From: a virus
Virus record (IMG/VR): IMGVR_UViG_3300045806_000066
Coordinates: 1 to 62,339 of that record
DNA: 62,339 nucleotides
Reading direction: 5' to 3' (one strand)
The position numbers and the translations under genes were made by a program. Below the pieces are notes generated by a model, which saw only the letters and a program-made list of their open reading frames with translations, was not told the origin of the DNA and did no database searches. How positions within the stretch are numbered: position 1 is the stretch's first letter; every line of letters starts with the position of its first letter. Below are positions 9,803 through 51,310 of the stretch, one piece after another.

Positions 9803-11101
9803 TTAATTGGCGAGCGATCCAGGGATATTCAATCCAAAGATTACACCCGAGGCCCAGGAGTTCCGAGAGCCATAGTTGACCGCATCGTAAAAATACGCAT
9901 CGTTTTGCGTGGTGTGGAAGTTGCCGGAGATGCGCGGCCAGTACATGCCGTTGAGCGGACCGGGAAGCATCTGCGGCCCCTTGTGGAAGCGGCACCGCAC
10001 CAGAACCTTCTGGTCGATGAAGTACACCTTGTCGATCGCGGCCACGGAGTCCAGAACGCACTCGAAGCCGGCAATGTTCTTCGGGCTGTTGGGCGAGGGT
10101 ACGCCGTCGAAGCTCGAAGCCTTGCCGTTGCTCAGGGTGTTCATCTGGATAGCGAAGCCGTTGGCTTCCCATGCATACCACTGCGCGGGATGGGTGTACC
10201 AGAAGTTCTTGGCCGCCTCGGACGTGAAGGTTTCCACGCCGCGCGCCTGCTGCATACGCACCAAGAACGATTGCACGGAGCCCAGGGTCAGCGGGGCGCC
10301 GTTGGCGTTGAATGCCGGGCTCTGGGTATAGCTCAGGGCGCGGTTCATGCCGTACAGTTCGCCGGTCGCCGAGGGATTGATGATGTACTGCAGTCCCTGG
10401 AAGAACAGCGGAGTGCCGGCGGCCACGCCGTTGACGAAGATACCGTCGCCCGCCACGGTTCCGGCCGGGACTGCATCGAGGGTGATGGTGTCGGTCGCGC
10501 CCGCGGACACGGAGAGCTTGTCCTGGACGAAGGCCGAGCCGCGCAGGTTGTAGTTCGTGTCCATGACCTGAATGGTGTCGTGCGCGTCGATCAGCCGGGC
10601 GCCAAAGGAGCTGGTCGCCAGGGTAACCGGGTTCGCGCCGCCGCCCGCGTAGGCCGCATTGACCGTTGCGATCTGGCCGGTGTTGGAGCCCTGCAGAAGC
10701 ATGTTGCGCTTCTTCGCCATCTTCTTCTGCATGTCGTTGATGGCGCGGTCCACCGGGTTGACGATGGAAACGCTTGCGCCGGATTCGCCGATGCGCTTGG
10801 CGAGGTCGGTGAAGCTGGTTCCCACGATCAGTTCGACGGGGGTCATGCGGCCCTGGTCGTAGCTGGCTCCCAGGCCGGCCGAGTACGCGCCGCCGTCGGA
10901 GTTGAAGGCGCCGAACGAGCCGCCCATTTCCGTCTGCAGTGGCATACGGTAGGTGAGGAGCGAGGACTCGTCTTCCTTGCCCATCTGCGAAAACCGCTTG
11001 TCGAGGCCGGTTTCCACGTTTTCCAGAAGGTCAATCTCGCGGTTGATGGTTTCGAGCATCAGCGATTCGTTCTGCGCTGCACTTCCAAAATTAACTGGCA
11101 T
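9803..11101 (-). CDS. Major capsid protein (432 aa)
   Basis: The product has the length and layout of HK97-fold major capsid proteins. There is a charged helical N-arm (ESLMLETINREIDLLENVET) and a helix with NPVDRAINDMQKKMAKKRN corresponding to the spine region. Extended beta and Gly-rich loops follow, including a possible insertion around residues 195-260. The C-terminal part ends in NIPGSLAN. No cleaved delta domain or protease gene is seen; a separate scaffold gene precedes it. The start follows GAGGA, with a perfect 6-bp hairpin just upstream. Gene order portal, small gene, scaffold, capsid supports the call. Confidence 0.85.
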   Translation of the reverse strand: MPVNFGSAAQNESLMLETINREIDLLENVETGLDKRFSQMGKEDESSLLTYRMPLQTEMGGSFGAFNSDGGAYSAGLGASYDQGRMTPVELIVGTSFTDLAKRIGESGASVSIVNPVDRAINDMQKKMAKKRNMLLQGSNTGQIATVNAAYAGGGANPVTLATSSFGARLIDAHDTIQVMDTNYNLRGSAFVQDKLSVSAGATDTITLDAVPAGTVAGDGIFVNGVAAGTPLFFQGLQYIINPSATGELYGMNRALSYTQSPAFNANGAPLTLGSVQSFLVRMQQARGVETFTSEAAKNFWYTHPAQWYAWEANGFAIQMNTLSNGKASSFDGVPSPNSPKNIAGFECVLDSVAAIDKVYFIDQKVLVRCRFHKGPQMLPGPLNGMYWPRISGNFHTTQNDAYFYDAVNYGSRNSWASGVIFGLNIPGSLAN

Positions 11102-13515: not shown

Positions 13516-16080
13516 TTATTTTCCCGCCGTGGCGGTCTTTACGGCTGCGTCCATGATGATCTTACCAGCAGACACGTTTGCCGTTCCCGCCCCTTTCGGG
13601 AGGGGTGGCATGGTCGAGATTAGGGTGAGAGCCTGTGCGGCTTCTGCGGCATCCTGCAATATCTTCGCCTGAGCCTGCTGCATCGCCGGATCTGCAGGCG
13701 GCGCTCCTGCTTGCTGCACCTTCATCTTGCGGCCAGCGTCCTTGGCAGCCTTCTCCATCTCGTCCTGCTCGAGTTGGTCGTAATAGAGTCCGAGATTCGT
13801 CCAGCCAGCGGGATTACTCGCGGCCAGATCGCAATTTTCCTGCGCGAACAGGTTGACGGTATCCTTGGCGACCACATAGTTCGTGAACCGCGATGGCACC
13901 ACGGGCGGCATCATGCCGGCCACGCCGGGCTGACCAGTCTGCGGATCGACGCCCATCTGCGGGATGCCGGGTTCCTTGAGCAGCCGTGCAATGTCCTGCA
14001 AGGTGGCCGACCGCTGCGCGCCGCCGGGCATGACTGCGCCCTGTACGCCCAGGACGGTGATCGCCATCTCCTGGTTGATCGGCACCTGCATGAACTCGGC
14101 GTAGAGCTGGTTCTCGCCCATCTTGTCGATCATGTTTTGCCAGAACTCGCGCACGGCTTCCGGCGATTGCGGCAGTCCCTGATCAATATCCGGGTAGACG
14201 CGAATCCGGCCCGTCATGTCCTCCATGCGAACGTAGTTGTTGCGGAACTCGCTTCCGTTCTCCTGAATCACGCTCCACATATCGCCCGCGAGTTTCATGT
14301 TGGCCTGTAGGCACTCGATAGCGTTCTGACTGGCGGCGGCGTGCTCCTCCTTCAGATTCTCCCAGTAGATGCCGAGCTTGGCGTTGGCCTGGTCGAGTTG
14401 CTGCTTCTGGCCTCCGGCCGTTTCGACACCCTTGGTCGTGCCAGTGCCGAACACTTCCGGGGTGATGCCGCAGATGCTCTGGGCAAACTGCATTAGGCTC
14501 GGAAGGTACTGATAAATGGCCGGGTCGAGCGGCGACTGGTGCTGGTAGATCGCGCTCTGCAGCGGCATATCGCCCTGCTCACTCTTGCTCGGCACCGTGT
14601 TCCAGACGCCAGGCAGCATCCGCTTGCCGCTCAGTTCTCGCATATCGAGGCGGCGGCCATCTACCAGCACCATGCCCGCGGCGTTGCGCTGCATGTGGTC
14701 GTCGATGATGTTGCTCGCATCGTTGAATCGAATATTAAACGGCACCACGTTATCGGCGATGGCCGGCGGGTACATGCCTACGCCCTCGTGCAGCAGGCAG
14801 CAGGACCATTCCTTCGTCAGTACCGCGGCCTTGATCTGCAGAACGGCGGGGCCGACCATCGAAACCTTGAACCCCTCGGGGTAGGCTTTCAAAAGGCGCG
14901 CGAGGAGCGAATTCGGGTCTTTCGGGTCGCCCTGGAGACGGTAGTAGGCGAACGGTTGCGCCCAGCCTTCCGAGTAGGTCGGGTTCTGCGAGGCGATATC
15001 GGTGGTCGTGTTGCCAACCTTGGAGCTCACCATCGTCCGGACCAGCCGCTCATAGCTGGCATTGCGGTTGGTCGAGGACTCGGCGCCCTCGGTAATCTTG
15101 GCGATCTCCGTGGGGAACGTCATGCGCAGCGCGCCCACGTCCACTTCCATCTCTTTGACGAGGATGGGTGTATCGGCCAGGGTCTGGGCCTTCGGGTCGC
15201 AATCGACCTGCATAGGACCGTAGACGCTCCACTTCGGCATCCCAAGGGGCTGTTTCGCGGTCACGGGCACAGATTGAATGTCGGTGCCGCCCTCGTAGTA
15301 GTCCTCGGAGCCGAACTGCGCACCGCATTTGCCACATGCGGGGCTATCAAGGTCGGCATCCGTGGTCGAGGTATCGGCTCCGCACTCCGAGCAGTGGAAG
15401 TGGTCTGGAATCTGAATTTCTTGGTCTTCCAGCGTGGTGACGTTCTTGAATCCGGCCCAGTTGCCGTCGATTACGAAGCGGGTGTGCTTGAAATAGACGC
15501 CGTAGAGGTACAGCAACAGGTCTTCGTGGCGCACCATCGAGCGGATACGGTTCAGGCGCTCAATAATTCCGATGGCTTCCTGCGAAGCCTTGGCCGTGGT
15601 CGTGTCGGCGAGGTTCTCGGCGTTCTCGGGCCGTACCAGCGTCGGCGGAACTCCGCGCGAGAGTGCCGCAACGAAGCCAGTGCCGAACATCTGCGTGATG
15701 TTGTTGATGAACTTTTCCAGGTCAACGTCATCGGCGCCGTCATCGCTCGGGTTCTGCCGATACCATGCCAGCGCGTCCACGTAGGTATTCGAGCCCGCAT
15801 CCCAGCCTAGAATCTGGATGCCCTTGTACATCTGGACATTCTTGAGCCAGTTGGGAAAACGTAGCATCCGGTCCTGCGCCCAGCCTGCTCGGTAGGTGGT
15901 AAACAGGTTGACGATCTGCGCCTTATCGTCGTCGCTCCATCCGGCATCGGCCGCCTGCTGCTCCGCTGGCACCGTCTGAGGATGATCGAGTGAACTGTCG
16001 AGCGTAGAGTCATCCATCGCAGGAGCCGAAGACACTGGCTGGTTCGGCATGGCCGGGGTTGGAATCGTGGGGCTAGACAT
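13516..16080 (-). CDS. Portal protein with a zinc-ribbon insertion (854 aa)
   Basis: Length, gene order and sequence style match large podovirus portals. There is a charged, Trp-rich N-terminus (YRAGWAQDRMLRFPNWLKN) and an early DLEKFINNITQMFGTG helix. A Gln-rich C-terminal region (residues about 740-850) would form the barrel and crown. Residues about 228-255 contain CSEC and CGKC pairs, a zinc ribbon inserted in the body of the protein. The portal forms the dodecameric DNA entry ring and is the docking site for the terminase. Its start overlaps the stop of the 105-aa gene, and the scaffold module follows. Confidence 0.8.
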   Translation of the reverse strand: MSSPTIPTPAMPNQPVSSAPAMDDSTLDSSLDHPQTVPAEQQAADAGWSDDDKAQIVNLFTTYRAGWAQDRMLRFPNWLKNVQMYKGIQILGWDAGSNTYVDALAWYRQNPSDDGADDVDLEKFINNITQMFGTGFVAALSRGVPPTLVRPENAENLADTTTAKASQEAIGIIERLNRIRSMVRHEDLLLYLYGVYFKHTRFVIDGNWAGFKNVTTLEDQEIQIPDHFHCSECGADTSTTDADLDSPACGKCGAQFGSEDYYEGGTDIQSVPVTAKQPLGMPKWSVYGPMQVDCDPKAQTLADTPILVKEMEVDVGALRMTFPTEIAKITEGAESSTNRNASYERLVRTMVSSKVGNTTTDIASQNPTYSEGWAQPFAYYRLQGDPKDPNSLLARLLKAYPEGFKVSMVGPAVLQIKAAVLTKEWSCCLLHEGVGMYPPAIADNVVPFNIRFNDASNIIDDHMQRNAAGMVLVDGRRLDMRELSGKRMLPGVWNTVPSKSEQGDMPLQSAIYQHQSPLDPAIYQYLPSLMQFAQSICGITPEVFGTGTTKGVETAGGQKQQLDQANAKLGIYWENLKEEHAAASQNAIECLQANMKLAGDMWSVIQENGSEFRNNYVRMEDMTGRIRVYPDIDQGLPQSPEAVREFWQNMIDKMGENQLYAEFMQVPINQEMAITVLGVQGAVMPGGAQRSATLQDIARLLKEPGIPQMGVDPQTGQPGVAGMMPPVVPSRFTNYVVAKDTVNLFAQENCDLAASNPAGWTNLGLYYDQLEQDEMEKAAKDAGRKMKVQQAGAPPADPAMQQAQAKILQDAAEAAQALTLISTMPPLPKGAGTANVSAGKIIMDAAVKTATAGK

Positions 16081-16390
16081 TGTTGGCTTCTCTCATTTCG
16101 GGCGGAGGCGCGATCTGGCCGGATACTTGGACGGCGCGCGCTCGTTTTGCCATATCGGCAGTACACAGCGCGGCAATGTCGCTGGGGGTACGGCGGGACT
16201 TCATGGGCGGCTGTGCGGATGGTTTGGATGTGTCAACCATCTCTGCGGCGGTCAACGGCTTAACGCGCAGCGGCTGTGCGCCATGCGAGGTCAAGAGACG
16301 GTCGAGAAGGAGCGCGTTGGCGTTCTTCAGCTCCTCGACGCGCGCCGCCATGTCGTCATATCTTCCGCGGGACACCCAAGGGAAGCGCAT
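16073..16390 (-). CDS. Small coiled-coil protein upstream of the portal (105 aa)
   Basis: The product begins MRFPWVSRGRYDDMAARVEE, with a short helix predicted to form a coiled coil (about 14-35) and a Pro-rich, basic remainder. Its TAG stop overlaps the portal ATG by eight bases, and it starts just after the stop of the 128-aa gene. A similar short protein with a basic lead and an LEALEAEN-type helix is common next to portals in soil phages in my recollection; function is unknown. Confidence 0.6.
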   Translation of the reverse strand: MRFPWVSRGRYDDMAARVEELKNANALLLDRLLTSHGAQPLRVKPLTAAEMVDTSKPSAQPPMKSRRTPSDIAALCTADMAKRARAVQVSGQIAPPPEMREANNV

Positions 16391-16839: not shown

Positions 16840-18603
16840 TTAGTTCACAATTGCGATCAATCCTGTTGGCGGCAAGGGTGCGCCGCTTGGTGTCACGTAC
16901 TGATAGGCTCCCGCGTCCCACCGGGAGGTGCGCGCTACGCTGTTTTTGTCGCTGCACAGCCCAGCGGTCAGGCCGCTGCACAGTCCGTTCAGGTTGGCCC
17001 CCAGGTTATAGGCGCTGCTTCCGGTGGTCTGTATCTGGTATGCGCCGCTCAGCGCCGGGTCAACCGTGCTCGACGCCGCATCATAGCCGTACGTTCCCGT
17101 CCACGTCGAGTAGTTATAGAACGCCGTTCCGTCTCCGCTAGCCATCTGCGGGGAACTCGCCCACACGTTGTTATTCACTCCTGAGGTGGATACGTCCGAT
17201 AGCAGCGTGCCGTAGTCGTGCAGGCCGTACTTGACGCCCTCGATGATGTTGTTCTGAATCTTGGGCTGGCAGGCACCCGAGGTAATCGCCCCGGTGCCGA
17301 GAGTGATGGCCGAGTCATTGGATTTCCCGATGATCGTATTGTTATAGATGGTCGAGCAGGAGTTGCCCGTACCCACCCAGAACACTCCCGGCAGCGGACT
17401 GCCGGTATTCACCAGCAGGTTGTTGTACATGTCGCAAGTGGCGTTTTGTGCGCAGTAAAGGAAAGCCGTGGGCGAGCCGACGCCTAGATCGCCGTAGATG
17501 TAATTGTTGTACATTGAGACGGTGACGGTTGGGCTGCTGGCACCGAAGTTGAAGACGACGATCCCGTCCTGGTGCAGCGTGCCCGTTGGGAATTGCCAGT
17601 TCGTCCAGTTGGTGATCGTATTATTGAAGAACTGTGCCCCGGAAATGGTATCGTTAGAGCTCCCACCCGCGGCAATCCCCCAGTCGATATCGCTGATGTT
17701 GTTGTAGCTGACAGCGATGGCCGAGGCGTCCTGATTGGTGTCGGCGGAGAACAAGACGCCGGTCTTGCACTGCGAGACCGTGTTACCTGTCACCACCGAA
17801 CCCGTCGCGGCCCCGAAGAATGCAATGCAGGCGGTGTTCGCTCCATTGATGTCGGTCGCCCCGCTGCTCGATCCGGCGTTGATGTAGATGTTCTTGATCG
17901 TCAGGTTTTCTACCGTACAGTGGGTACAGTTGTCGCCTTCGACACCATAACTCTGTTGCTCGGTGGAGAGCCCGCTGCCGTTGCCTGAGTTCTGGATGGT
18001 GCCCACGCCCACGCCTAGCCCGTCCACGACGATGTAGCTCAACCCGCTTCCGAGATAGATCGCTCCATGCGTGCCGCTGGCGTATGGACTGGTGATCGTG
18101 AAACCCTCCGTGCAGGCCCGCAGGGTGATCGGGTTGCCGCTAGTTCCGGACTGCGCGAAGGACAGCAGGGAAGCGCCAGCCGCGAGACTGAATGACCCGC
18201 CGATGTAGGTGGTGTCTCCGGGCGCAAATGTGGTCGAGTTGAATGTTGCCGGAGTGATGGCCGTCACGCCTGAGCCATTGCAGGTCTGCGCTCCCGCAGC
18301 GGGGAAAACGTAGCGGTTCGCCGCCAGCACGGGCGCGGTGAGCAAAACAAACAGCAGCAGCGCGGGCAGGGTCATGGCGGCGGCTAGATTGTCGTAGCTG
18401 CGGCGCAGTTTGCGGTGGGAGTTTTTCTCGTGCAGGCAACTTTGCATGATTTCTTCCTGCTCCTTGGGTGTTAGCTGTTGCAACGCCTTTTCGCAGTCCA
18501 GAATCGCGATGATGCCACTCTCCCCCACCCACACCTTCCCAGTGCTGCGGGCTTTCAGATAGCAGTAGCGCATCATCTTCGGCCAAACATCGTAGCGAGT
18601 CAC
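16840..18603 (-). CDS. Membrane-anchored right-handed beta-helix appendage protein (587 aa)
   Basis: Residues 1-76 are soluble and charged (YLKARSTGKVWVGESG...LTPKEQEEIMQ). Residues 77-97 are strongly hydrophobic and end LLTAPVLAANRY, a signal-anchor or signal-peptide segment. Residues about 120-530 show many short repeats rich in Asn, Gly, Val and Ile (NNTITNWTN, MYNNYIYGD, NNTIIGKSND), typical of pectate-lyase-like parallel beta-helices in tail spikes and secreted polysaccharide-binding enzymes. The end (TSRWDAGAYQYVTPSGAP) resembles secreted proteins of Acidobacteriota. The GTG start overlaps the previous stop as GTGA. A fusion of a cytoplasmic domain to an exported beta-helix is odd; a second start at Met77 lacks a visible ribosome-binding site. 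Confidence 0.75.
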   Translation of the reverse strand: MTRYDVWPKMMRYCYLKARSTGKVWVGESGIIAILDCEKALQQLTPKEQEEIMQSCLHEKNSHRKLRRSYDNLAAAMTLPALLLFVLLTAPVLAANRYVFPAAGAQTCNGSGVTAITPATFNSTTFAPGDTTYIGGSFSLAAGASLLSFAQSGTSGNPITLRACTEGFTITSPYASGTHGAIYLGSGLSYIVVDGLGVGVGTIQNSGNGSGLSTEQQSYGVEGDNCTHCTVENLTIKNIYINAGSSSGATDINGANTACIAFFGAATGSVVTGNTVSQCKTGVLFSADTNQDASAIAVSYNNISDIDWGIAAGGSSNDTISGAQFFNNTITNWTNWQFPTGTLHQDGIVVFNFGASSPTVTVSMYNNYIYGDLGVGSPTAFLYCAQNATCDMYNNLLVNTGSPLPGVFWVGTGNSCSTIYNNTIIGKSNDSAITLGTGAITSGACQPKIQNNIIEGVKYGLHDYGTLLSDVSTSGVNNNVWASSPQMASGDGTAFYNYSTWTGTYGYDAASSTVDPALSGAYQIQTTGSSAYNLGANLNGLCSGLTAGLCSDKNSVARTSRWDAGAYQYVTPSGAPLPPTGLIAIVN

Positions 18604-19064
18604 GGCGCCACCTGCAGCAGCGTGACCGCGATCCCGGTGGCCCACGCCGCACAGCCCGCCGGAGAACTGAACCACAGCAAAACCGTTCCCGCTACCGGCG
18701 TGGCCAGAGGCTTGACGACGCCCTGCATCCAGGCGAAGCCGTTGCTTGCTACGCTCGCTTCATACGCCTGCGAGGTATCCACCGTGTCGAGCACGTTACC
18801 GCCGGGGTCTTTCAGAATAACCGTGGCGGGCGAGTTGCAGCCCTGCCACGGCGATTGCGTCTCGATCTGCATGGCCGCCATGGTGACGCCTGCCGGCAAT
18901 ACGATGGTGGCCAGGGAATCGTTGACCGCGCCGCCGCTATCGGTAAAGGGCTCGATCTGCCAGTTGCCGGAGGCGTCGGGAATGGCTGCCGGCATCTGTG
19001 CCCATAGGCAGGATGCCAGCAGCATCGACCCCGCGAGTTGGGCGGCCCGTGTCCAGCGTTTCAT
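18600..19064 (-). CDS. Exported, possibly lipid-anchored fibre-cluster protein (154 aa)
   Basis: The N-terminus MKRWTRAAQLAGSMLLASC is a signal peptide with a lipobox (L-A-S-C); cleavage after WAQ by signal peptidase I is the alternative. The mature part is beta-rich with a jelly-roll-like pattern (NDSLATIVLPAGVTMAAMQI) and a hydrophobic C-terminal strand. It is one of six consecutive exported proteins in the appendage block. Its start follows the stop of the 125-aa gene by one base and its stop overlaps the beta-helix gene. Function is unknown. Confidence 0.65.
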   Translation of the reverse strand: MKRWTRAAQLAGSMLLASCLWAQMPAAIPDASGNWQIEPFTDSGGAVNDSLATIVLPAGVTMAAMQIETQSPWQGCNSPATVILKDPGGNVLDTVDTSQAYEASVASNGFAWMQGVVKPLATPVAGTVLLWFSSPAGCAAWATGIAVTLLQVAP

Positions 19065-19065
19065 T

Positions 19066-19443
19066 TTACTGGCCGACCCTGCCCTGTTGTCCGTGGTTTT
19101 GCCCCTTGATCCAGCCGCCGGAAGCCGAGTATCCGTACTGGTTCTGGTCGATAGCGTGGGACGCGGCGGAGCTATCGAGCGTGCCTTTCAACTGGTTCAG
19201 CGCGGTTACGGTGGCGGCGTGCAGGGCTTGCTGCTCAGGCGAGGCCAACAGGGCCTTGACCGGGGCGGCTTCGGCGGCCTGCGCGGCGGCGTAGGCGGTG
19301 CTGGCCGCGGTGATGGAGGCGGATTCGGCGGCGGTGACCGGAACCGCGGCCGGTGAAGCGGCTGGGGCAGCGGACGGAGTTTGGGCGAAGCCTGTAGCCG
19401 CGATGGCGAGGGTGAGCAGGACGATTCCGAGAGCGGTTTTCAT
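19066..19443 (-). CDS. Exported Ala-rich helical protein (125 aa)
   Basis: MKTALGIVLLTLAIAATGFA followed by Q-T-P is a clear Sec signal peptide. The mature protein is Ala/Ser-rich with a helical region (about 40-100) and a Gly/Gln-rich tail (GGWIKGQNHGQQGRVGQ). AAGGAG stands nine bases before the ATG. It may act as a short rod or linker with the neighbouring fibre proteins. No family is recognised. Confidence 0.65.
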   Translation of the reverse strand: MKTALGIVLLTLAIAATGFAQTPSAAPAASPAAVPVTAAESASITAASTAYAAAQAAEAAPVKALLASPEQQALHAATVTALNQLKGTLDSSAASHAIDQNQYGYSASGGWIKGQNHGQQGRVGQ

Positions 19444-19483
19444 GGGGTGTTTCTCCTTGGCGCAGCAGCGCTTGGTGATGGCT

Positions 19484-22402
19484 TTAAAATACTCGAATAT
19501 TGTAGGTTTGCGCGGCCGGGGTGATTCCGAAGGCCGTGCAGAGTTGGGGAATGACCGTATCGGCAGCGCTGACGCTACATTGCGGCTGCAGGTTGGCGGG
19601 GTTGCCCGCCGTGCCGGTCATGGCACACGTCATGGTGGTCAGGGCGCCAGGCACCGTCACCGCCGCCTGGTTCGTACATCCTGCAGCCAAGAGGCCGCCG
19701 CCAATACTCGGCGTGGTGGCCGCCAGGCTGACGCCCGCCGCCACTCCGCCCGCCGCCACTACCCAGTTGGCTCCGTTCCAGAATGCCTGCACCTGGTAGC
19801 TGCCGGCCGCGGTAATGGTTGCGCCGATAATGTTGGTGTTTGCAAGCGTGGAATGGGTTTCCCCGAAGGATGGGCTGACCGGGAGAGAGGCAAACGCCTG
19901 CCCTTGAATGGTCAAGCCGCCTCCCTCTACCTCTACCGGCCCTTGAAACAGGGCGGCAAACTCGGAGCCGTAGGCTTCGGCGTACAGCGCCACTCCGTCT
20001 GGAGTGGCGGCTTGGGGTTGGACATAAGTCTCGCCGTACAGGATGGCCGCGCCGTCTGTGGTGTACGGGTTTACTACAATCCCGGCACCCTGGATGGTTG
20101 CGGCCGAATCTTCTACGAGAATTCCTGCGTTCCCGATGTAGTAAGATCGGCCGCCGAGGATGTACATGGCATCGGCGTAGGCGTCTCCGTCGGCGGTGGG
20201 GTCTTTGATGACCAGGGAGGCTTCTGTGTTATCGGTAAAGCCTGCGGTGCCCTCCTCCGGGGTGTCGATGACCAAGCCATAGGCATACCCGACGAAGGCG
20301 CTGGCGCCGTAATCCACCACGACGCTGGCGGCCTGGCCTTCGCCGATTCCGCCGGGGGGAAGCGAGTAGCCGCCCGCCACCTCGAGCGCGGTGGAGCTGG
20401 TAATGCCTGCCGGAAGGAATGCGCTTTGCTTAATATAAGTTTCGGTGCCGGTGAGTTGAACCAGGCCACTGTAGCCGTCGCCCACTCCTAACGGGTTGGC
20501 GGTCAGGCTGATATCGCAGCTCAGGGTGCCTACCGGGTTACCGTTTTCGCAGGTGGTCAGCAGAATGTTTGCCAGGCCTGCCTGACTCCCTACGGAGGTA
20601 TCGAAGGTTTCCGCGTCAAAGTCAATTTGCGCGGCCGCAAAGCCATCGCCCTGGGCGTTGGTTTGAGATCGCAGATAGATCATTCCAGGTCCGCCGGCTG
20701 GGGCCTCGTCCGCAGCCGAAGGGCTCGCGGAAGTTAGCTGGAAGCTGCCGCCGCCGGTTTGACCGTAGGTGCTCACGTACATACTGCCGCCGTCCTGAAT
20801 ATTGTCTGCGGCTTGTAAGGTCAAGCAGGCCGGGCAGCCGTCGGCGCTGACGCCGTTTTCAATCACAGTGAAATTGTATTCCGGGATGGTAGCCGTGCCC
20901 GTGTCGGCGGTTTCAAAGTCCAAGCCGTCGCCGGTAAAGATCAGCGGGCCGAGGATGGGAGTCTCATCCAGTAAATCAGCCGCCCCGTTGAATGTGCCCA
21001 GCGGGTAATTGGTTTGCACCGAGTAGAGCGGGACGCCGGGTGTTCCGCCGCCGCCGCCGCCGCCGGAGAACGGTACCCAAGCATAGGTAGAACTGCCGAT
21101 ATTCATGCAGGCTTCAAACGTATCCGCACTGGCGCCTGAACCGTCTATGTAATGGAATCTCCCTTGGTTCGGCGCTCCGCAGGTTGCCTGTGACTCGTGC
21201 GGCTGTAGAACGAAGTCGCCGGAGAATACCTCACGGCCACCGTTGGTAAAGATCGAAAATGCATTTGGATAAGCGCCACCATCCGTAATGTCCTGCGCGT
21301 AGAAGCAGGCATCCGTTCCAGCATCTACCCCCGCTGGAGTTCCTTGACACTCAAATCCAGAAAGTGACCCGGCAAGCCCTTGCTCTGGGGCGAAGGTCGC
21401 TAGGTAGGCAGTCAAGGAGTTACTCTCCGGGGAGGAAGGCGCGGCAGAACGAACAGTCACATCTAGACCAGTAGCAGAGTACCCAGCGAAATCTTCTGCC
21501 GTGATGGTCGCAGCCTCGACGTTGCCAGGAAAGTTTGAGTTATACGAATACGCCTCTATCGTGGAACCGCTGTCTCCCCTGGTCGGGCTTAGCAATCCAC
21601 CAGATATAGACACATTATCGCTAGCAGTCGAATTTCCTGCGATGAAAAGACCTGCATCCCCATAATCGCCAACGTCAGTTCCGATAGCGACGACAAATGC
21701 CTCGGGAAGATAAGCGCCTGTTTGGTCAACTATAAACTGTCCATTACCGCAGAACTCTCCTGAGCAGTTGTACTGTACGGAGTTCAATGGGGTTCCGGGC
21801 GTTCCTCCGCCGCCGCAGCTCTGCGCGACGTAGGCGCTGCCGTTCCAGGTGTAATACTGGCAGGCGGCCGTGCGCTGATCGAGGATCGAGATGGCCGTAG
21901 TGCCGCTGGCCGATGTGATCATTCCCGTGGTGCCGCCTTCGGTTGTCCACTCAGGGCTCAGGATAATCACCGAGGTAGGCGTGCTCGACACAGCCGAATA
22001 CCGTTCTGCGTAGTTGATGCTCTCCTGTAATCCAGCCGTGGCCGAGACAATCTGATACGAAAAATGGGTATATGTCGGTGCCGGACTGAATGAAACGGCG
22101 CATCCGATGTTGGTCGAGCGCACGGTAGCTGGAATCACCGTCTCATTCTGCGCTGGGTTGGAATCCCGAATTGAAACTGGTGTGCCTACAATAAATGGAT
22201 GGATCTGCACTCCACCGGTCGTCACCACGCAAGGTCCAGCCCACGAGAACCCACCATCAGCGCCCGAGGTCATTGACCATTGAGCAAACTGCGAGGCGTA
22301 GAGGAACCCATTGAAACTGGCCTGCTGAGCATGAGTAGTCACGCTCACGCTCAGCAGAACCCCCAGGAGCACAGTTGTCAGTCGAACAAATCGCAGCGTC
22401 AT
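19484..22402 (-). CDS. Long exported tail-fibre-like protein (972 aa)
   Basis: The start MTLRFVRLTTVLLGVLLSVS followed by VTTHAQQ is a Sec signal peptide. Residues about 40-190 form one beta-rich domain. Two linkers, GGGTPGTPLNSVQYNCSG (about 204-225) and GGGGGGGTPGVPLYSVQTNY (about 446-466), carry the Gly-rich xPxNSVQYN signature that separates domains in phage tail fibres. The C-terminal 150 residues contain a beta-rich region ending in QPQCSVSAADTVIPQLC. Length and style match a trimeric fibre, yet a signal peptide is not expected on a virion fibre. It shares the operon with five other exported proteins. Confidence 0.75.
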   Translation of the reverse strand: MTLRFVRLTTVLLGVLLSVSVTTHAQQASFNGFLYASQFAQWSMTSGADGGFSWAGPCVVTTGGVQIHPFIVGTPVSIRDSNPAQNETVIPATVRSTNIGCAVSFSPAPTYTHFSYQIVSATAGLQESINYAERYSAVSSTPTSVIILSPEWTTEGGTTGMITSASGTTAISILDQRTAACQYYTWNGSAYVAQSCGGGGTPGTPLNSVQYNCSGEFCGNGQFIVDQTGAYLPEAFVVAIGTDVGDYGDAGLFIAGNSTASDNVSISGGLLSPTRGDSGSTIEAYSYNSNFPGNVEAATITAEDFAGYSATGLDVTVRSAAPSSPESNSLTAYLATFAPEQGLAGSLSGFECQGTPAGVDAGTDACFYAQDITDGGAYPNAFSIFTNGGREVFSGDFVLQPHESQATCGAPNQGRFHYIDGSGASADTFEACMNIGSSTYAWVPFSGGGGGGGTPGVPLYSVQTNYPLGTFNGAADLLDETPILGPLIFTGDGLDFETADTGTATIPEYNFTVIENGVSADGCPACLTLQAADNIQDGGSMYVSTYGQTGGGSFQLTSASPSAADEAPAGGPGMIYLRSQTNAQGDGFAAAQIDFDAETFDTSVGSQAGLANILLTTCENGNPVGTLSCDISLTANPLGVGDGYSGLVQLTGTETYIKQSAFLPAGITSSTALEVAGGYSLPPGGIGEGQAASVVVDYGASAFVGYAYGLVIDTPEEGTAGFTDNTEASLVIKDPTADGDAYADAMYILGGRSYYIGNAGILVEDSAATIQGAGIVVNPYTTDGAAILYGETYVQPQAATPDGVALYAEAYGSEFAALFQGPVEVEGGGLTIQGQAFASLPVSPSFGETHSTLANTNIIGATITAAGSYQVQAFWNGANWVVAAGGVAAGVSLAATTPSIGGGLLAAGCTNQAAVTVPGALTTMTCAMTGTAGNPANLQPQCSVSAADTVIPQLCTAFGITPAAQTYNIRVF

Positions 22403-22414
22403 CAGGAGAGTCCT

Positions 22415-23116
22415 TTACGGGATGGTGACAGTGAGCCACGCCTGGTTGATGCAAACGTAGAAGCCGCCCGTCGCATCGGTGCGCGAGGCAGTCGAGCCGG
22501 AATTGCAGGTACCAGTCGGAGCGGCGCCGACCAGCAAAGCGCCAATCGGCAGATACTTGCTGGCCGTGGTGTTCCACTTGTAGCTCTGCGGGGGAAGGAC
22601 GGTCAGGTCCAGCAGGGCAGTAGTCGCGTTGCCTGCCGCCGCGGCAATGATGGCGGCCGGGGTGGTGCCGGGAACGGCTTTGGCATTCTGATACCAGCGC
22701 GTATCGAGATAGACGACTTGGGGATAAGCCGAGCCGGTGCCGAGTGCGTTGATCGCTTCCTGGAGACCTGCGGTACCGGACTTGAGATAGAAACCGTTGT
22801 GACTGTTGACGGTGGTCGCGGTGATACCGCAGCGGCCAGAGGTGTTGGTCACGGTGGACGCGGTGACGACCTCAGACAGAGACGCCGTGACGTCCGAAAT
22901 CAAGACTGGAGCGTTGGTGTTGAACGGAAAAAACAGGCTGGTGCCGTTGGACTGCAGGCAGACATTCGCGCCCTGCACGATGTAGGTGTTGGAAAACTGG
23001 CTGGGGATTGCCCACGTACCGTAGTCGTAGGCGAAGTACCAGGATTTGTTGGACTGAGCGAAGCACCCTGCGACGAGCAGCAGGACTACGCTCAGAGTTC
23101 TGAGAAGGCTTTTCAT
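22415..23116 (-). CDS. Exported fibre-cluster protein with lipobox-like signal (233 aa)
   Basis: MKSLLRTLSVVLLLVAGC followed by FAQ is a signal peptide with a possible lipobox (V-A-G-C). The mature part includes SNTYIVQGANVCLQSNGTSL and a GLQEAINALG motif. A SAGLQESINYA-type motif also occurs near residue 127 of the 972-aa protein, suggesting a shared domain in the cluster. I chose the ATG preceded by AAGGAG. It is probably an attachment domain or partner of the long fibre; function is unknown. Confidence 0.7.
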   Translation of the reverse strand: MKSLLRTLSVVLLLVAGCFAQSNKSWYFAYDYGTWAIPSQFSNTYIVQGANVCLQSNGTSLFFPFNTNAPVLISDVTASLSEVVTASTVTNTSGRCGITATTVNSHNGFYLKSGTAGLQEAINALGTGSAYPQVVYLDTRWYQNAKAVPGTTPAAIIAAAAGNATTALLDLTVLPPQSYKWNTTASKYLPIGALLVGAAPTGTCNSGSTASRTDATGGFYVCINQAWLTVTIP

Positions 23117-23145
23117 GTGAATCTCCTTGGGGTGGTGCGGATGAC

Positions 23146-24615
23146 TTAATTGTGGTGCCCGTGACAATCGAAGGTGGCTACTCCGGCAATCGAGGCTGTA
23201 AAAACTACTCCAATAGTCGCTGTCGTGGTCGTTTTGGTATTTACAACCCAGTAGCCGACATATTGCGAACTGCCGGTGAGTCCGCAATCAACGAAATATG
23301 AGGAGTCGATGAACGTACCAGGCCAAGTGATCGTCGCTGAACACGATAGACCGCTTCCGGAGCAACCAGCCGTCGCATACAAATCCACCGGACAGGCCGA
23401 GGTCGCTGTGACGATGCCCTGAGAGTTGATCGCGCTGGGGCACAGGCCCGAGGTCACGCCGCCCTGCTGCGCTAGATCCGCAACTGTGCGAGTGCCCCCA
23501 GAGTCGTCCGATACGGCGAAGGCTGATGTGAAATCGAGGATGGGGCGCTGCTGGCGCGCGGTGCCGTTGGCTTGCACGGTCTGGTAGAAGGCAGATCCGC
23601 CGAGACAGGAGCCCCAAACTGGCGGCGTGGTGGGCCCGGTAGAGAGTAGGCACTGGCTCAGGCTGCCCGCATTGCCCGAGAGCCGGAACAGGCCGGTGAG
23701 ATTCATGTCGCCGCGCACATCGAGTGGGTAGGCCGGAACCGCCGTGCCAATGCCTGCGCGCCCCACACTCAGGAGATTGTAGCCATTGAGCGAGAGTGAG
23801 CCAGTGATGCCCTGCTGGCCGTGGTTGGTGGGGCTGGGGAGGATGGGCGACGGGTAGTAGACGACGCCGTGATACCAGGGCACACCGGCGGACAGGTTGA
23901 CCGTCGATCCCGCTCCCATGAGCTGCCATTGCTGCTGAAACTTAGGAACGGCGTTGCCCGCTGAGTCGGTGAGGCTGACCACGTAACCAGTGCCTACGGG
24001 CCACATCGCATCATTGGCAGTGACCGCGCAAACGGTGGTGTTGGCAGTCGGAACCGCTACACCAGTGACCAGAACCGAAGTCTGCGAGTAGGTGGCATCG
24101 CCCGTCGTGGTGCCCTGGAGCGTCTCTGCGCCCGAGGTGGCTCCGATATAGACGGCCATGCCGGTCGCGCCGCCCTGCAGCCCGGAGGCTGGCGTATTGA
24201 CGTTGAGCGTGCCCGCCATCGTGAGCTGAACCACCTGCTCGGGGGATGGCAGCGTGTACGTCGAGTCGGAGGAGTAGAACGCAAATTGCACGTAATAGGT
24301 GCCAGCCGGGAGCGAGCCGGAGCCATACTGCGCAGTCGCCGTGGTCGTGGTCAGCGGGTCCGCCAGCTCCACCACGGAGCCGTCTGCCGAGGTTGCGCAG
24401 GTCACCGCAGCGGGAATGTTGACGCCGCAGCCAGCGATGTAGCCGGTGTTAGAAGGGGCGAGCGTGATGATGTCGTTGGCCGCGGGAAGCCCGTTGGCCG
24501 ACCGCAGGGTGCCGACAACCGTGACCTGGGACGCCGTGACGCAAGATTCAGCATAGGCCGCCTGGCCACCGAGCGTGAGCAGGACAGCGATCAGCCAGCG
24601 AGCGTAGCGTGTCAC
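23146..24615 (-). CDS. Exported tail-fibre-like protein (489 aa)
   Basis: A signal peptide, MTRYARWLIAVLLTLGGQAA with cleavage near AYA-ES, starts the protein. Residues about 30-250 contain two beta-sandwich-like regions. Residues about 265-320 contain NHGQQGITGSLSLNGYNLLS and a GIGTAVPAYPLDVRG element, the VGIGTxxPxxxLDV signature of phage and adhesin fibre stalks. The C-terminus has paired Cys and ends FDCHGHHN. The GTG start overlaps the previous stop as GTGA. It is the first of the six exported genes in transcription order. Confidence 0.75.
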   Translation of the reverse strand: MTRYARWLIAVLLTLGGQAAYAESCVTASQVTVVGTLRSANGLPAANDIITLAPSNTGYIAGCGVNIPAAVTCATSADGSVVELADPLTTTTATAQYGSGSLPAGTYYVQFAFYSSDSTYTLPSPEQVVQLTMAGTLNVNTPASGLQGGATGMAVYIGATSGAETLQGTTTGDATYSQTSVLVTGVAVPTANTTVCAVTANDAMWPVGTGYVVSLTDSAGNAVPKFQQQWQLMGAGSTVNLSAGVPWYHGVVYYPSPILPSPTNHGQQGITGSLSLNGYNLLSVGRAGIGTAVPAYPLDVRGDMNLTGLFRLSGNAGSLSQCLLSTGPTTPPVWGSCLGGSAFYQTVQANGTARQQRPILDFTSAFAVSDDSGGTRTVADLAQQGGVTSGLCPSAINSQGIVTATSACPVDLYATAGCSGSGLSCSATITWPGTFIDSSYFVDCGLTGSSQYVGYWVVNTKTTTTATIGVVFTASIAGVATFDCHGHHN

Positions 24616-24946: not shown

Positions 24947-25348
24947 CTACAGCCGACCGTCCAGCGAGCTAAGATACGCGCGGTTGGTGCCCTCTCGCAT
25001 CCACTCCAGCGGATCGAGAAATTCAAGCAACATGACCACCTCAATTGCGCGCTTCATGGATGGCTGGTCCCCAATTTCCTCATTTTTCCCGTTGATCGGG
25101 TACACCACCACGATTCGGCCATTGCCGTACTCGGTGATGTAGTCCTTCGCCCAGCGAGTGCCGCCGAGGTGCTTGTCTGGCACATAGTTTGGATCGGGAG
25201 TCGTCGCGCCAGTGTTGACGGCCACAGCCTGTAGTAGTTTCCCTAGCCGAGCAGCCACGCGATCTTTCGCGGCCTGCGGCGCGCACTCCACAAATCGCTC
25301 ATCCGCCAACTGCGCCGTTAATTTTGCAATCTCTTCGTCTCGCGTCAT
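24947..25348 (-). CDS. Protein of unknown function after the small terminase (133 aa)
   Basis: Residues 1-45 form a helical region (EIAKLTAQLADERFVECAPQ) and residues about 55-125 a mixed alpha/beta domain (NGRIVVVYPINGKNEEIGDQ). Its ATG overlaps the terminase small-subunit stop as ATGA. Position suggests involvement in packaging or head assembly. I do not recognise it. Confidence 0.65.
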   Translation of the reverse strand: MTRDEEIAKLTAQLADERFVECAPQAAKDRVAARLGKLLQAVAVNTGATTPDPNYVPDKHLGGTRWAKDYITEYGNGRIVVVYPINGKNEEIGDQPSMKRAIEVVMLLEFLDPLEWMREGTNRAYLSSLDGRL

Positions 25349-25878
25349 TTTGACTTTCCCTCAATCTTGCGCAGGGTGAAGCAGATGGGCCCGCCGTTCG
25401 CGCCGGTCAATTCCTTCTTGTCCGTGAACAGTTTGAGGTGGCGGCCGAGGCGCTCCAGGTTCTGCCCCTTGTCGGCCAGCTTGATCTTCTTCAGTAGGCC
25501 GTAGGCGTGCTTCTGGTCGCCAGTACCCTCGAACAACTCGCACACTTCCAGGCCCGCAATCGCCATCGCCGTCACGTCGTCGATGTCCTTGATCTGCTTC
25601 ATCGAGCCGTCCGACTCAAGGAAGTTCCTCGGGTCGTAATAGGCCAGCTTGGCGATCTCGCTCAGTACCCGATCAGCCGTAATCTCTAACTTCTCCAGCC
25701 TTTTTCCTTGCTTCCTGCTGATTTCGGCTGAAATCTTAGCATTCGTCAGCAGCTTGCTCGCGGACTGCGCTGCCCCGTTCTGGCTGTAACCTGCTGCGAT
25801 ATAAGCCCTTGTCGCGTTCAGGTCGGTCAGATACTCAGCGATGAAGGTTTCTTGTTTTTTACTGAGTCCCTCTGCCAT
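25345..25878 (-). CDS. terS: Terminase small subunit (177 aa)
   Basis: The N-terminal domain (LSKKQETFIAEYLTDLNATR followed by AYIAAGYSQNGAAQSASKLL) is the Terminase_2/HTH signature of small terminases that recognise the packaging site. A helical oligomerisation segment (KRLEKLEITADRVLSEIAKL) follows. The C-terminal part (about 95-150) has the DIDDVTAMAIAGLEV and LKLFTDKKEL pattern of the family. The length is usual. The gene is 36 kb away from the large subunit along the operon. An HNH nuclease gene lies just upstream, with a short gene overlapping both. Confidence 0.9.
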   Translation of the reverse strand: MAEGLSKKQETFIAEYLTDLNATRAYIAAGYSQNGAAQSASKLLTNAKISAEISRKQGKRLEKLEITADRVLSEIAKLAYYDPRNFLESDGSMKQIKDIDDVTAMAIAGLEVCELFEGTGDQKHAYGLLKKIKLADKGQNLERLGRHLKLFTDKKELTGANGGPICFTLRKIEGKSK

Positions 25879-34208: not shown

Positions 34209-35030
34209 TTATTCGCATAGGTTGTAGACGCTCATGCAGCTACGGGCCGGGAACATGGGCAACTGATCTTCATCCACGCTCTCGATGTAGCGGAAAATAT
34301 CATTGGCCCAAGGGAAAGTCGCCCCGCTCGCCTCATCTTTCCCCGTGTGGAATCGCGCAGGGCAATCGTCGGGGCTCCAAAAGGATCTGCCAACTTTTGA
34401 TTCCAAGTCAAGAATCCGCTTCTTGAGAAAGTTCCATGCATCGGGATAGCTGCGGATCGCCCGAAGTTCCCGCATGTTTACCATGATGCACGGAAAGCAC
34501 CCGACACGACCGCACCCCATGAGGTAGAGCGGGTTCGGTGCCACTCCATGCTTCTTGGCAATCTCAAAGCACTGCTCCGCCGTCCAGCGCAGTAATGGCC
34601 GTTCGATCCAGTACCCGCCCCCATCGTCAACCCACTGCCGTTCATTCATTTTGGCTCGGCTGGCGGATTCATCGGCGCGGATTCCTTGATAACTGCGGAT
34701 GTCGCCATCGTCGAGTGATTCAAAGTAGCGATGGAGCGGGAAACTCTTCAACTCCTGAGTGCAGAACCGAGCGCGAGCGGAAGGGACACGTTTACGCTTG
34801 ACGCTCATGTCCTCAAAACCTTCGTACTTGTCGCTGGTCACCGTCACCAACGAGCCACAGAGGATGGAATGATTGATTTCCTCGATGTAGGCGTAAGTGA
34901 TCGGGTGCTCCCATTTTGTATCGCAAAAAACTGGAGTCCAGTCCACACCAGGCACGCCGATGTTCTCCCTCATCCAGAGCATGAGAGCTGTTGAATCCTT
35001 GCCGCCCGAAAAACAACCGATGTGTTTCAT
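34209..35030 (-). CDS. PAPS-reductase-family PP-loop protein (273 aa)
   Basis: The start MKHIGCFSGGKDSTALMLWM contains the PP-loop SGGKDS of adenylyl-transferring sulfate/thiolation enzymes. FCTQELKSFPLHRYF and CGRVGCFPC provide Cys residues that resemble the metal or sulfur-handling sites of the phosphoadenosine-phosphosulfate-reductase-like phage proteins and DndC. The catalytic chemistry is probably ATP-dependent activation. Substrates in phages are not settled; sulfur modification of DNA or tRNA is a possibility. The start overlaps the RusA stop as ATGA, so it is translated with a recombination gene. The longer upstream frame is a shadow. Confidence 0.8.
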   Translation of the reverse strand: MKHIGCFSGGKDSTALMLWMRENIGVPGVDWTPVFCDTKWEHPITYAYIEEINHSILCGSLVTVTSDKYEGFEDMSVKRKRVPSARARFCTQELKSFPLHRYFESLDDGDIRSYQGIRADESASRAKMNERQWVDDGGGYWIERPLLRWTAEQCFEIAKKHGVAPNPLYLMGCGRVGCFPCIMVNMRELRAIRSYPDAWNFLKKRILDLESKVGRSFWSPDDCPARFHTGKDEASGATFPWANDIFRYIESVDEDQLPMFPARSCMSVYNLCE

Positions 35031-35437
35031 TCCGGCACCGCCGCTCTCACCGCGATCTCTGTCCTCGGATTCAACCAGTCGCGCCGTACCCGCATGATCC
35101 AATCGCTCACCGCCGCATCGCTGTGGATCACGCCAGCCTCTTTCAGCCCATCCCCGACGCACTTCCAGAGGTTGTCACCGTCGCCCTTTTGCCCCTTGCC
35201 GAAGTAGACCGTCACCTCAAGCTCATAGTGCAACTTGCCGAGTTGCGTGGTCGTCAAACCAGCGCACATAGACTGGCGACGAGCGAACATAGCCACGGCC
35301 GCCTTGTACGCTTTGGCCTCATCAGAGACGAACGTTACCCCGCGCCTGGTCCGCGTCTTGTAGTGATTGACGCTGGGCGGCGTGAGTGGAATCACAAAGC
35401 ACACCTCTTGCACCGCTGCCGCCGTGCCCGCGTTCAT
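35027..35437 (-). CDS. rusA: RusA-like Holliday junction resolvase (136 aa)
   Basis: PLTPPSVNHYKTRTRRG at the N-terminus and GKGQKGDGDNLWKCVGDGLK then EAGVIHSDAAVSD are the two conserved RusA blocks. They include the acidic metal-binding residues of the GDxDNxxK and DDxxV-like segments; here the second reads SDAAV. RusA cuts Holliday junctions as a dimer, useful for resolving replication or recombination intermediates before packaging. Length is standard. ATGA overlaps bind it to both neighbours. Confidence 0.9.
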   Translation of the reverse strand: MNAGTAAAVQEVCFVIPLTPPSVNHYKTRTRRGVTFVSDEAKAYKAAVAMFARRQSMCAGLTTTQLGKLHYELEVTVYFGKGQKGDGDNLWKCVGDGLKEAGVIHSDAAVSDWIMRVRRDWLNPRTEIAVRAAVPE

Positions 35438-49597: not shown

Positions 49598-51310
49598 TTA
49601 CTTTCCGAGTCGCCGAATGGTTCCGAAGCGCCGCCCGATGGTGGCCGGCGCGTTCGCCTTCTGTATCTCCGCCTGCAGACGCTGGCGGTGGATGTACAGC
49701 GAATTCTCGTCGAGCCCGCTGGCCTTCATCTTCGCCAGTTTCTCCTCCATCTCTTCTTCCCGCGGCTTCTTTCCGGGTGAGAGCATCGACTTGAGGCCGT
49801 AGCGGGCAGCTTCCGAGGTGTCCATCTCGATGCGCGCCGCCCCTTTGTCGGTTTTCAGTACCCGGTCCAAGTCTTTCGGATCGCGCATGAGAAGCGGAAT
49901 CGACGACACCAATTCCGCACAGTTCGCCGAGATCAGCCACACGCTATCGCCGGTAGCACCTTCGCGCTTGGTTTCCAGCAGCATGTTCGACATCAGACTC
50001 CATCCGCCCACCACATCGGTATCGGCAGCCTGGGGGTAAGGTAGCCCGTTCTTGGTCAGGATGGAGCCCATGCTCTGCGCGATGGTGTTCTTGCTGCTGC
50101 GCTGGGCGAATGCGTCCGGGGAGAGGTAGAACGCGCCATCGGTATCGGACAGCTTCTCGCGCTCCTCGACCGGCGTCCGCTCCACGATCTGCAGAGCGAT
50201 GTCGTTCTCGGAAATCTCTCGCGTTCCGCCCTCGTCCTGCGCCGCCGCGCCACCGGCCACGTATTCCCGGTAGGTCAACACCACCTTGAGCGTGCGGGTC
50301 ACGTCCCAGCCCAGAAGCTTCTTTACATCCTCGGGCGACATCTCGCCGCGGGCGTGCCAGTAGGTTGCGCAATAGTGGCCGCGCCCCCAATCCTGGGACA
50401 ACCACTTCTGCCACCACGGCTTGATGATCTTGGAAACTACCTCGGGAGAGAGTACCGTCTTATCCCGGTCGTATGTGCGGCCAAAGAAAGCACCTTCCAG
50501 CGATTCCCATGAGCCCCAGAAATCGCGCTGTACCAGCGCCTCATCCTGCGAGACCAGCGCCTTGCCGTAATCGGATCGGGTTGCGCAGAACTCGGCTCGC
50601 TGCGCATCGGTCCAGCCGTAGTAATCTTCCTCGTCCAGCCCGTCCTCTTCGAGCGCCACCCGCACCCATTCCACGTTGTCAAACGGGCGGACGTGGACGA
50701 AAGAGAAGTCCTCGCGCCGCTCATTCTCACGGAACTCGTGCAGATGGAAAACACGACGCAGGAAGTCAATTCCGACGCCGCCCATATTGAATGCTAGGTA
50801 CAGCTTGCAGGTTCCCATCTTGACGCCCGGCCAGCGGACGGCCTGCTTGATCTCGCGCAACTCCTGCTCAGTGAATTGCTCGGCCTGGTCCACCGCGACA
50901 TCGAAGAAGTTTGCCGAGCGGAACCGGTTGATTACATCGTCGAGCGATTCGGCGTGTGTGAAGATCAGTTCCGACGGCGGCCCGCTCTCCATCGGGAATA
51001 CCAGTTTGCGCTCGGTCTTTTTGTAGTACGGGGCCAGTTCGGGAAACTGGCGCATTATCACGTCCTCGTGATAGCGCCGAACCTGATCCGAGTTGCGCAT
51101 GACAATCACGCGCACCGTGCCGGGGTTTTCCATGCAGCGCGTGAGCATGATCCGTTGCATCCCGCCCGACTTGGCCCCGCCACGGCCGCCGCCGTTGCCA
51201 ATCCAGGTTGAGGCTCCGGACTCCATCAGGTCGTACACTTCGACCTGCTTCGGCTGCAGTACGATCGCGGGCTCCGGCTGCGAGATTGTCCCTATCGCTG
51301 GGGTCGCCAT
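49598..51310 (-). CDS. terL: Terminase large subunit (570 aa)
   Basis: The ATPase domain has Walker A GGGRGGAKSG near residues 38-48 and a Walker-B-like DVAVDQAEQF near 138, where the usual DE is replaced by DQ-x-E, a variation known in some phage terminases. Conserved segments LSQDWGRGHYCATYWHA (about 303) and LLETKREGATG with the C-terminal RYGLKSML fit the RNase-H-like nuclease. It pumps DNA into the prohead and cuts at packaging ends. The ATG overlaps the giant gene stop as TGATG. It is far from terS. Confidence 0.85.
   Translation of the reverse strand: MATPAIGTISQPEPAIVLQPKQVEVYDLMESGASTWIGNGGGRGGAKSGGMQRIMLTRCMENPGTVRVIVMRNSDQVRRYHEDVIMRQFPELAPYYKKTERKLVFPMESGPPSELIFTHAESLDDVINRFRSANFFDVAVDQAEQFTEQELREIKQAVRWPGVKMGTCKLYLAFNMGGVGIDFLRRVFHLHEFRENERREDFSFVHVRPFDNVEWVRVALEEDGLDEEDYYGWTDAQRAEFCATRSDYGKALVSQDEALVQRDFWGSWESLEGAFFGRTYDRDKTVLSPEVVSKIIKPWWQKWLSQDWGRGHYCATYWHARGEMSPEDVKKLLGWDVTRTLKVVLTYREYVAGGAAAQDEGGTREISENDIALQIVERTPVEEREKLSDTDGAFYLSPDAFAQRSSKNTIAQSMGSILTKNGLPYPQAADTDVVGGWSLMSNMLLETKREGATGDSVWLISANCAELVSSIPLLMRDPKDLDRVLKTDKGAARIEMDTSEAARYGLKSMLSPGKKPREEEMEEKLAKMKASGLDENSLYIHRQRLQAEIQKANAPATIGRRFGTIRRLGK

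Follow-up and report, generated by a model that had tools for sequence, protein, structure and literature searches.

This analysis concerns six adjacent genes for putatively exported, fibre-like proteins in a stretch of viral DNA of 62,339 bases, IMG/VR record IMGVR_UViG_3300045806_000066, positions 1 to 62,339 (the whole stretch is referred to below as the window). It contains a tailed-phage late block on the minus strand, in which a gene for the terminase small subunit (TerS) is followed by the six genes and then by genes for proteins of 128 and 105 amino acids (aa), an 854-aa portal-like protein, a head protein and further structural proteins. The original prediction was that the six genes, at 16840-24615, all encode proteins with an N-terminal signal. 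This proves to be so: a Sec-type leader is recognisable in all six, with one start codon corrected, and the hallmarks of Sec export and signal peptidase I processing, namely n-, h- and c-regions plus an A-x-A cleavage site, are present.

Six leader-bearing genes

All six genes lie on the minus strand and are described here in minus-strand order. The first (23146-24615) has a GTG start and encodes a 489-aa protein whose leader (24550-24615) and predicted cleavage are MTRYARWLIAVLLTLGGQAAYA^ES; its conserved body bears the motif GIGTxxPxYPLDV and its C-terminus is fibre-tip-like. The second (22415-23116; leader 23057-23116, MKSLLRTLSVVLLLVAGCFA^QS, with a lipobox-like LVAGC) encodes a 233-aa protein that is a short free-standing version of the N-terminal domain found in the third product, a fibre of 972 aa (19484-22402; leader 22328-22402, MTLRFVRLTTVLLGVLLSVSVTTHA^QQ). 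This common domain of around 190 residues, corresponding to the conserved residues 26-200 of the long fibre (21803-22327), is also found at other viral loci. There follow an Ala-rich protein of 125 aa (19066-19443; leader 19384-19443, MKTALGIVLLTLAIAATGFA^QT) and a 154-aa protein (18600-19064; leader 18999-19064, MKRWTRAAQLAGSMLLASCLWA^QM, with a lipobox-like LASC) which is similar to the C-terminal portion of a long fibre, likewise exported, in locus L004. The sixth gene (16840-18375) encodes a β-helix-like protein of 511 aa, or 535 aa if translation starts at ATG 18447, with leader 18322-18375 and cleavage MTLPALLLFVLLTAPVLA^AN.

Leaders were called with a home-made score in the style of von Heijne, combining the n-, h- and c-regions with the -3,-1 rule. 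Five of the six genes pass its strict threshold, the 154-aa gene falling slightly below on hydrophobicity (1.74 vs 1.9). With the same score, none of the 34 other credible genes of the window has a leader when each is read from its own start, and residue-shuffled N-termini give a false positive rate of 1.2% per gene. Were six leader genes placed randomly among 40, the chance of all being adjacent would be around 1e-5.

The length of 587 aa originally given to the sixth product must be revised, as the GTG start at 18603 yields no leader; one appears only from ATG 18375 (511 aa) or ATG 18447 (535 aa), and it is from this later start that the leader-bearing homologues in L011 and L029 align. The frame remains open for 67 codons upstream of the leader (18376-18576, minus strand; MMRYCYLKARSTG...), which may reflect a small gene of its own, an extended n-region or mere chance. 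The two lipobox-like sequences that had been noted are real, and the pattern [LVI][ASTVI][GAS]C is limited to the 233- and 154-aa genes, but it is not kept in their relatives. As these show A^Q instead, a lipoprotein reading with signal peptidase II is less likely than processing by signal peptidase I.

Conservation of the leaders

Scans of IMG/VR with the single 972-aa or portal sequence produced no match, and nor did searches of INPHARED with the 972-aa protein, the portal, a 489-family member or the sixth gene. An alignment of the 972- and 233-aa domains, however, retrieved a family of 32 viral loci from IMG/VR, and a wider alignment 51. Relatives of the N-terminal domain have leaders of their own, widely different in sequence; in the family alignment the Ala at -1 is near-constant and the residue at +1 is usually Gln. 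The original prediction also suggested looking for the same run of signal peptides in related phages, and leader-bearing genes are indeed found there in runs of three to seven. The order TerS, 489-family protein, short N-domain protein, long N-domain protein, variable exported genes and portal recurs across divergent contigs.

When all open reading frames (ORFs) of the loci were clustered, four families proved rich in leaders (79/96, 25/31, 17/19 and 9/12 members), the 25 of 31 being those of the 489-aa protein family. Leaders were absent from the portal (0/32), head (0/11) and TerL (0/6) families, and every other family was near zero. Members of the four families that lack a leader are mostly truncated, have miscalled starts or score slightly below threshold. 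Among ORFs with a complete 5' end, 128 of 145 in the four fibre families have leaders, against 3 of 199 in other families.

Ascertainment bias from a leader-bearing bait was considered and rejected, since a survey baited with the portal agrees. Among contigs whose portal is 35% or more identical and is preceded by at least 2.5 kb of sequence, a leader-bearing gene is seen upstream of the portal in 43 of 46, rising to 31 of 32 where at least 4.5 kb is available.

Cysteine parity

Exported proteins of Gram-negative bacteria prefer even numbers of cysteine (Cys), since these residues pair (PMC7678975). Following the method of that work, parity was assessed in mature proteins after redundancy had been removed at 50% identity, a test that is independent of any signal-peptide score. 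Even counts are found in 57 of 61 mature exported proteins (p 5e-13), the figure for the remaining families on these contigs being 36 of 89; kin are thinned rather than removed in this comparison, and repeated two-Cys domains raise even counts, although such domains are themselves disulfide modules. A mere composition effect can be rejected, as the other families of the same contigs have no even excess. Where the leader itself contains Cys (n=35), the count is even in 34 of 35 proteins after leader removal but in only 6 of 35 with the leader kept. The six mature proteins of the window all have even counts, of 12, 4, 18, 0, 2 and 12 in gene order.

That parity becomes even only on removal of the leader implies that the leader is cleaved and that the remainder folds in an oxidising compartment. 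Export of these fibre-like proteins, followed by removal of the leader and by folding with disulfides beyond the inner membrane, is thus a well supported prediction from the sequences. The same result disfavours the earlier suggestion of a leader kept as a virion anchor. Proteins of the DsbA family are encoded in eight of nine Acidobacteriota genomes checked, these being candidate host metagenome-assembled genomes (MAGs), and VKOR in three.

Fibre and tailspike character

The fibre or spike features first noted in these proteins were upheld in part. The PLNSVQYN and GIGTAVPAYPLDV motifs are present, but the β-helix repeats, in the sixth gene, are seen by eye only and have no Pfam hit; indeed none of the six window proteins matches a Pfam or PHROG fibre family. 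Their place in a late structural operon, between TerS and the portal-like gene and, in nearly all relatives, upstream of the portal, is nevertheless a trait of tail fibres and tailspikes. In the 489 family the first ~390 residues are conserved while the tips differ: among 23 members, four have a Gp53-like_C tip, one K1-lyase_C and one H_lectin. An AlphaFold2 model of the 489-aa window protein has a predicted local distance difference test (pLDDT) score of 68, and the best PDB matches to its C-terminal fold are the LKA1, AP22 and Pam1 tailspikes, H-type lectins and the R1 pyocin fibre, all weak (E 0.1 to 0.8). The N-terminal domain, by contrast, is modelled with confidence (pLDDT 86.6). PDB sequence searches with the sixth gene, portal, N-terminal domain, head and 1128-aa proteins returned nothing useful. 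Domains recognised within the exported modules, F5/8 C, CHB_HEX_C, Big_2 and Beta_helix, are of carbohydrate-binding and surface-protein types.

A more direct connection comes from a sister exported family of 888 aa, encoded outside the window, which has a region in common with annotated tailspikes and fibres of Salmonella (Kuttervirus), Curvibacter, Synechococcus and other phages. All eight reference tailspike or fibre homologues of this family that were examined are without a leader, in agreement with the premise that ordinary tailed-phage fibres carry none.

The lineage thus resembles known Caudoviricetes fibres and tailspikes, such as those with Gp53-like_C tips, the Kuttervirus TSP2 type and the R-pyocin fibre, in its modular bodies, swapped tips, β-helix and late structural operon, as well as in the direct sequence similarity of the 888-aa family and the tip domains of the 489 family. 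It differs in that the known members tested have no signal peptide, whereas the proteins described here bear a leader, are poor in charged residues and seem to have all their Cys paired. A further parallel is pIII of filamentous phages, a Sec-exported, disulfide-bonded virion protein responsible for receptor binding (adsorption). Receptor binding, Sec export and disulfides would be common to both, but pIII joins virions that are extruded through the membrane, whereas the window encodes the TerS, TerL and head protein of a tailed phage, and no membrane extrusion machinery or filamentous genome plan was seen in it. Phages do encode other exported envelope proteins, including Lom, Bor, Cor and Llp, and Lom likewise lies beside fibre genes (PMC12309495). 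These are small β-barrels or lipoproteins, however, unlike the large fibre and spike architectures, encoded by several genes in runs, of the window lineage.

Host and chromosomal occurrences

All seven genome matches are to Acidobacteriota MAGs. One locus is a provirus in a chromosome, on a contig of 112 kb with rho, IF-2, nusA and rbfA in its outer parts, and on a second contig a phage block is flanked by bacterial genes. These matches support Acidobacteriota as the predicted host of the window lineage. The two main families are rare in Acidobacteriota genomes (2/396 and 4/297), with strong hits only in a provirus, and the proposal that the locus was acquired from host secreted proteins finds no support for them.

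A relative of an exported fibre-like protein is present in ~28 of 297 Acidobacteriota genomes. In six regions (L202-L207) a protein of ~1500 aa, with a leader evident in most, is encoded in a compact cassette that also includes a repressor-like gene, a head-tail adaptor and TerL (for example L202:10117-14646 and 14719-16230). This cassette may be a gene transfer agent or a domesticated prophage.

Cultured phages of Tunturiibacter

Tunturi 1-5 were isolated on Tunturiibacter by Demina et al. (PMC11924767), who found Tunturi_1 and Tunturi_2 to be podoviruses by microscopy; signal peptides go unmentioned in their paper. In the GenBank entries of these two phages, we find leaders on gp12, gp13, gp14 (tail spike), gp16 and gp17 (virion structural protein), and the mature Cys counts in Tunturi_1 are 20, 10, 20, 1 and 32, respectively. 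The gp17 of Tunturi_2 is 96 residues longer than that of Tunturi_1, yet with 34 Cys against 32 its count is still even (L090:19474-23028, L093:18902-22744). This protein has a module in common with the exported proteins of the window lineage, whereas the TerL, portal and head proteins of Tunturi_1/2 lack similarity. No integrase is annotated in either phage.

Export of fibres is not a rule for all Acidobacteriota phages, as the fibres of Tunturi_3 and the examined part of Tunturi_5 have no leaders. In the siphovirus Tunturi_4 the two kinds stand side by side, a leader-less tail fibre gp111 (9 Cys) beside the exported gp113 (8 Cys) and gp114 (20 Cys) (L208:6434-13325).

Interpretation

We favour, with a probability of about 0.5, the reading that the six genes make up the receptor-binding module of an Acidobacteriota phage that is tailed and probably of the short-tailed type. 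This module, of fibres, spikes and accessory tips, would mature in the periplasm and be attached to virions at lysis. A virion role is preferred because of the receptor-binding architecture of the proteins, their position in the structural operon and the fact that no other fibre candidate is recognised in the window, where general family scans gave no fibre-like match among the other late genes. Sequence and comparison support Sec leaders that signal peptidase I cleaves at sites of the A^Q type; late in infection the proteins would be exported and then trimerise and become oxidised in the periplasm, apart from the heads and tails assembling in the cytoplasm. When lysis breaks the inner membrane the fibres would meet the particles, the conserved N-terminal domain perhaps docking them to the tail. 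Fibreless T4 and tailspike-less P22 particles take up fibres or spikes in vitro, which makes such late joining biochemically plausible. Taken in full, with the whole receptor-binding apparatus travelling by Sec, maturing its disulfides in the periplasm and completing the particle only at lysis, this would be a two-compartment assembly undescribed for Caudoviricetes, a proposal we make tentatively and at slightly under even odds. The component parts are of known kinds and it is the export route that is new; the open-access literature, as distinct from the whole literature, yielded no report of signal peptides on tail fibres.

Several points weigh against this reading. No precedent for exported fibres was found in tailed phages, and a fold search of the N-terminal domain against PDB and BFVD gave no significant match, so that no known virion-docking fold is seen. 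Unrecognised non-exported tail proteins could carry out receptor binding, and the arrangement in Tunturi_4 suggests that exported proteins need not be virion fibres. In a close rival reading, which we regard as less probable and which gains from Tunturi_4 with its two kinds of fibre, the products are exported non-virion proteins (adhesins, receptor maskers for superinfection exclusion, decoys or free polysaccharide-degrading enzymes) that work on the exterior of an infected or lysogenic cell or diffuse away from it, while unrecognised non-exported tail proteins serve the virion. Export alone then accounts for their location with no problem of topology, the carbohydrate-binding and surface-protein domains are readily accommodated, relatives occur as proviruses, and Lom of lambda offers a known example of an exported neighbour, its gene lying between those for spike and fibre (PMC12309495). 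Yet surface conversion would hardly call for five to eight large proteins of fibre architecture in a structural operon, and receptor-binding tips set free would be in competition with the progeny of the phage itself; the bodies and tips match virion fibres and spikes, and the cultured Tunturi_1/2 have no annotated integrase.

It is much harder to see the genes as captures from host secreted proteins, with the host leader retained as baggage. The same style of leader end is seen in the few chromosomal secreted proteins examined, and the ~1500-aa protein in its prophage-like cassette is an exported fibre-like protein in bacterial genomes, but the near-absence of the two main families from host chromosomes makes this improbable, and the retention of leaders and even Cys over deep divergence points to selection rather than baggage. 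Least probable of all, and in our view very unlikely, is that the leaders are false positives, or are uncleaved hydrophobic N-termini that anchor the proteins in the virion or the membrane. The in-frame upstream extension of the sixth gene would, if translated, place the hydrophobic stretch inside the protein; against this stand the near-invariant -1 Ala and mostly Gln at +1 in the family alignment, the change of parity with leader removal and the absence of scoring leaders from all 34 other window genes.

Tailed-phage assembly is taught as cytoplasmic, a rule that cleaved Sec leaders and paired Cys on receptor-binding proteins would break in the phages of one phylum. Should the proteins prove to be virion parts, the last step of assembly would lie beyond the cytoplasm, and the Sec and Dsb functions of the host would count among the host factors of the phage. 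Should they prove otherwise, the phages would be exporting a battery of fibre-like proteins that act on the surface of the cell or on its neighbours. In both cases the annotation of receptor-binding proteins in soil phages is affected, in that a leader should not rule out a fibre call. The question can be tested now in cultured Tunturi_1/2 on Tunturiibacter.

Other genes of the window

The genes around the module have no leaders. TerS (25345-25878, minus strand; PF03592, E 1.4e-34) marks its upstream boundary. The portal-like protein (854 aa; 13516-16080, minus strand) is so called by position and size, PDB sequence and family searches having given no family match. Its family has a four-Cys, zinc-ribbon-like insertion with invariant C230, C233, C249 and C252, at 15307-15405 (minus strand) in the window. 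The major head protein (9803-11101, minus strand) matches phrog_14242 (E 8.9e-6), and TerL (49598-51364, minus strand) matches phrog_2 (E 6.1e-15). TerL comes after a giant late gene of 3659 aa (51310-62289) with a 2'-5' RNA ligase-like domain at 59689-60054 (minus strand) and a weaker match to Acb1, a protein acting against the cyclic oligonucleotide-based antiphage signalling system (CBASS). A phosphoadenosine phosphosulfate reductase-like gene at 34209-35162 (minus strand; phrog_424, E 2.5e-53) is a possible auxiliary metabolic gene.

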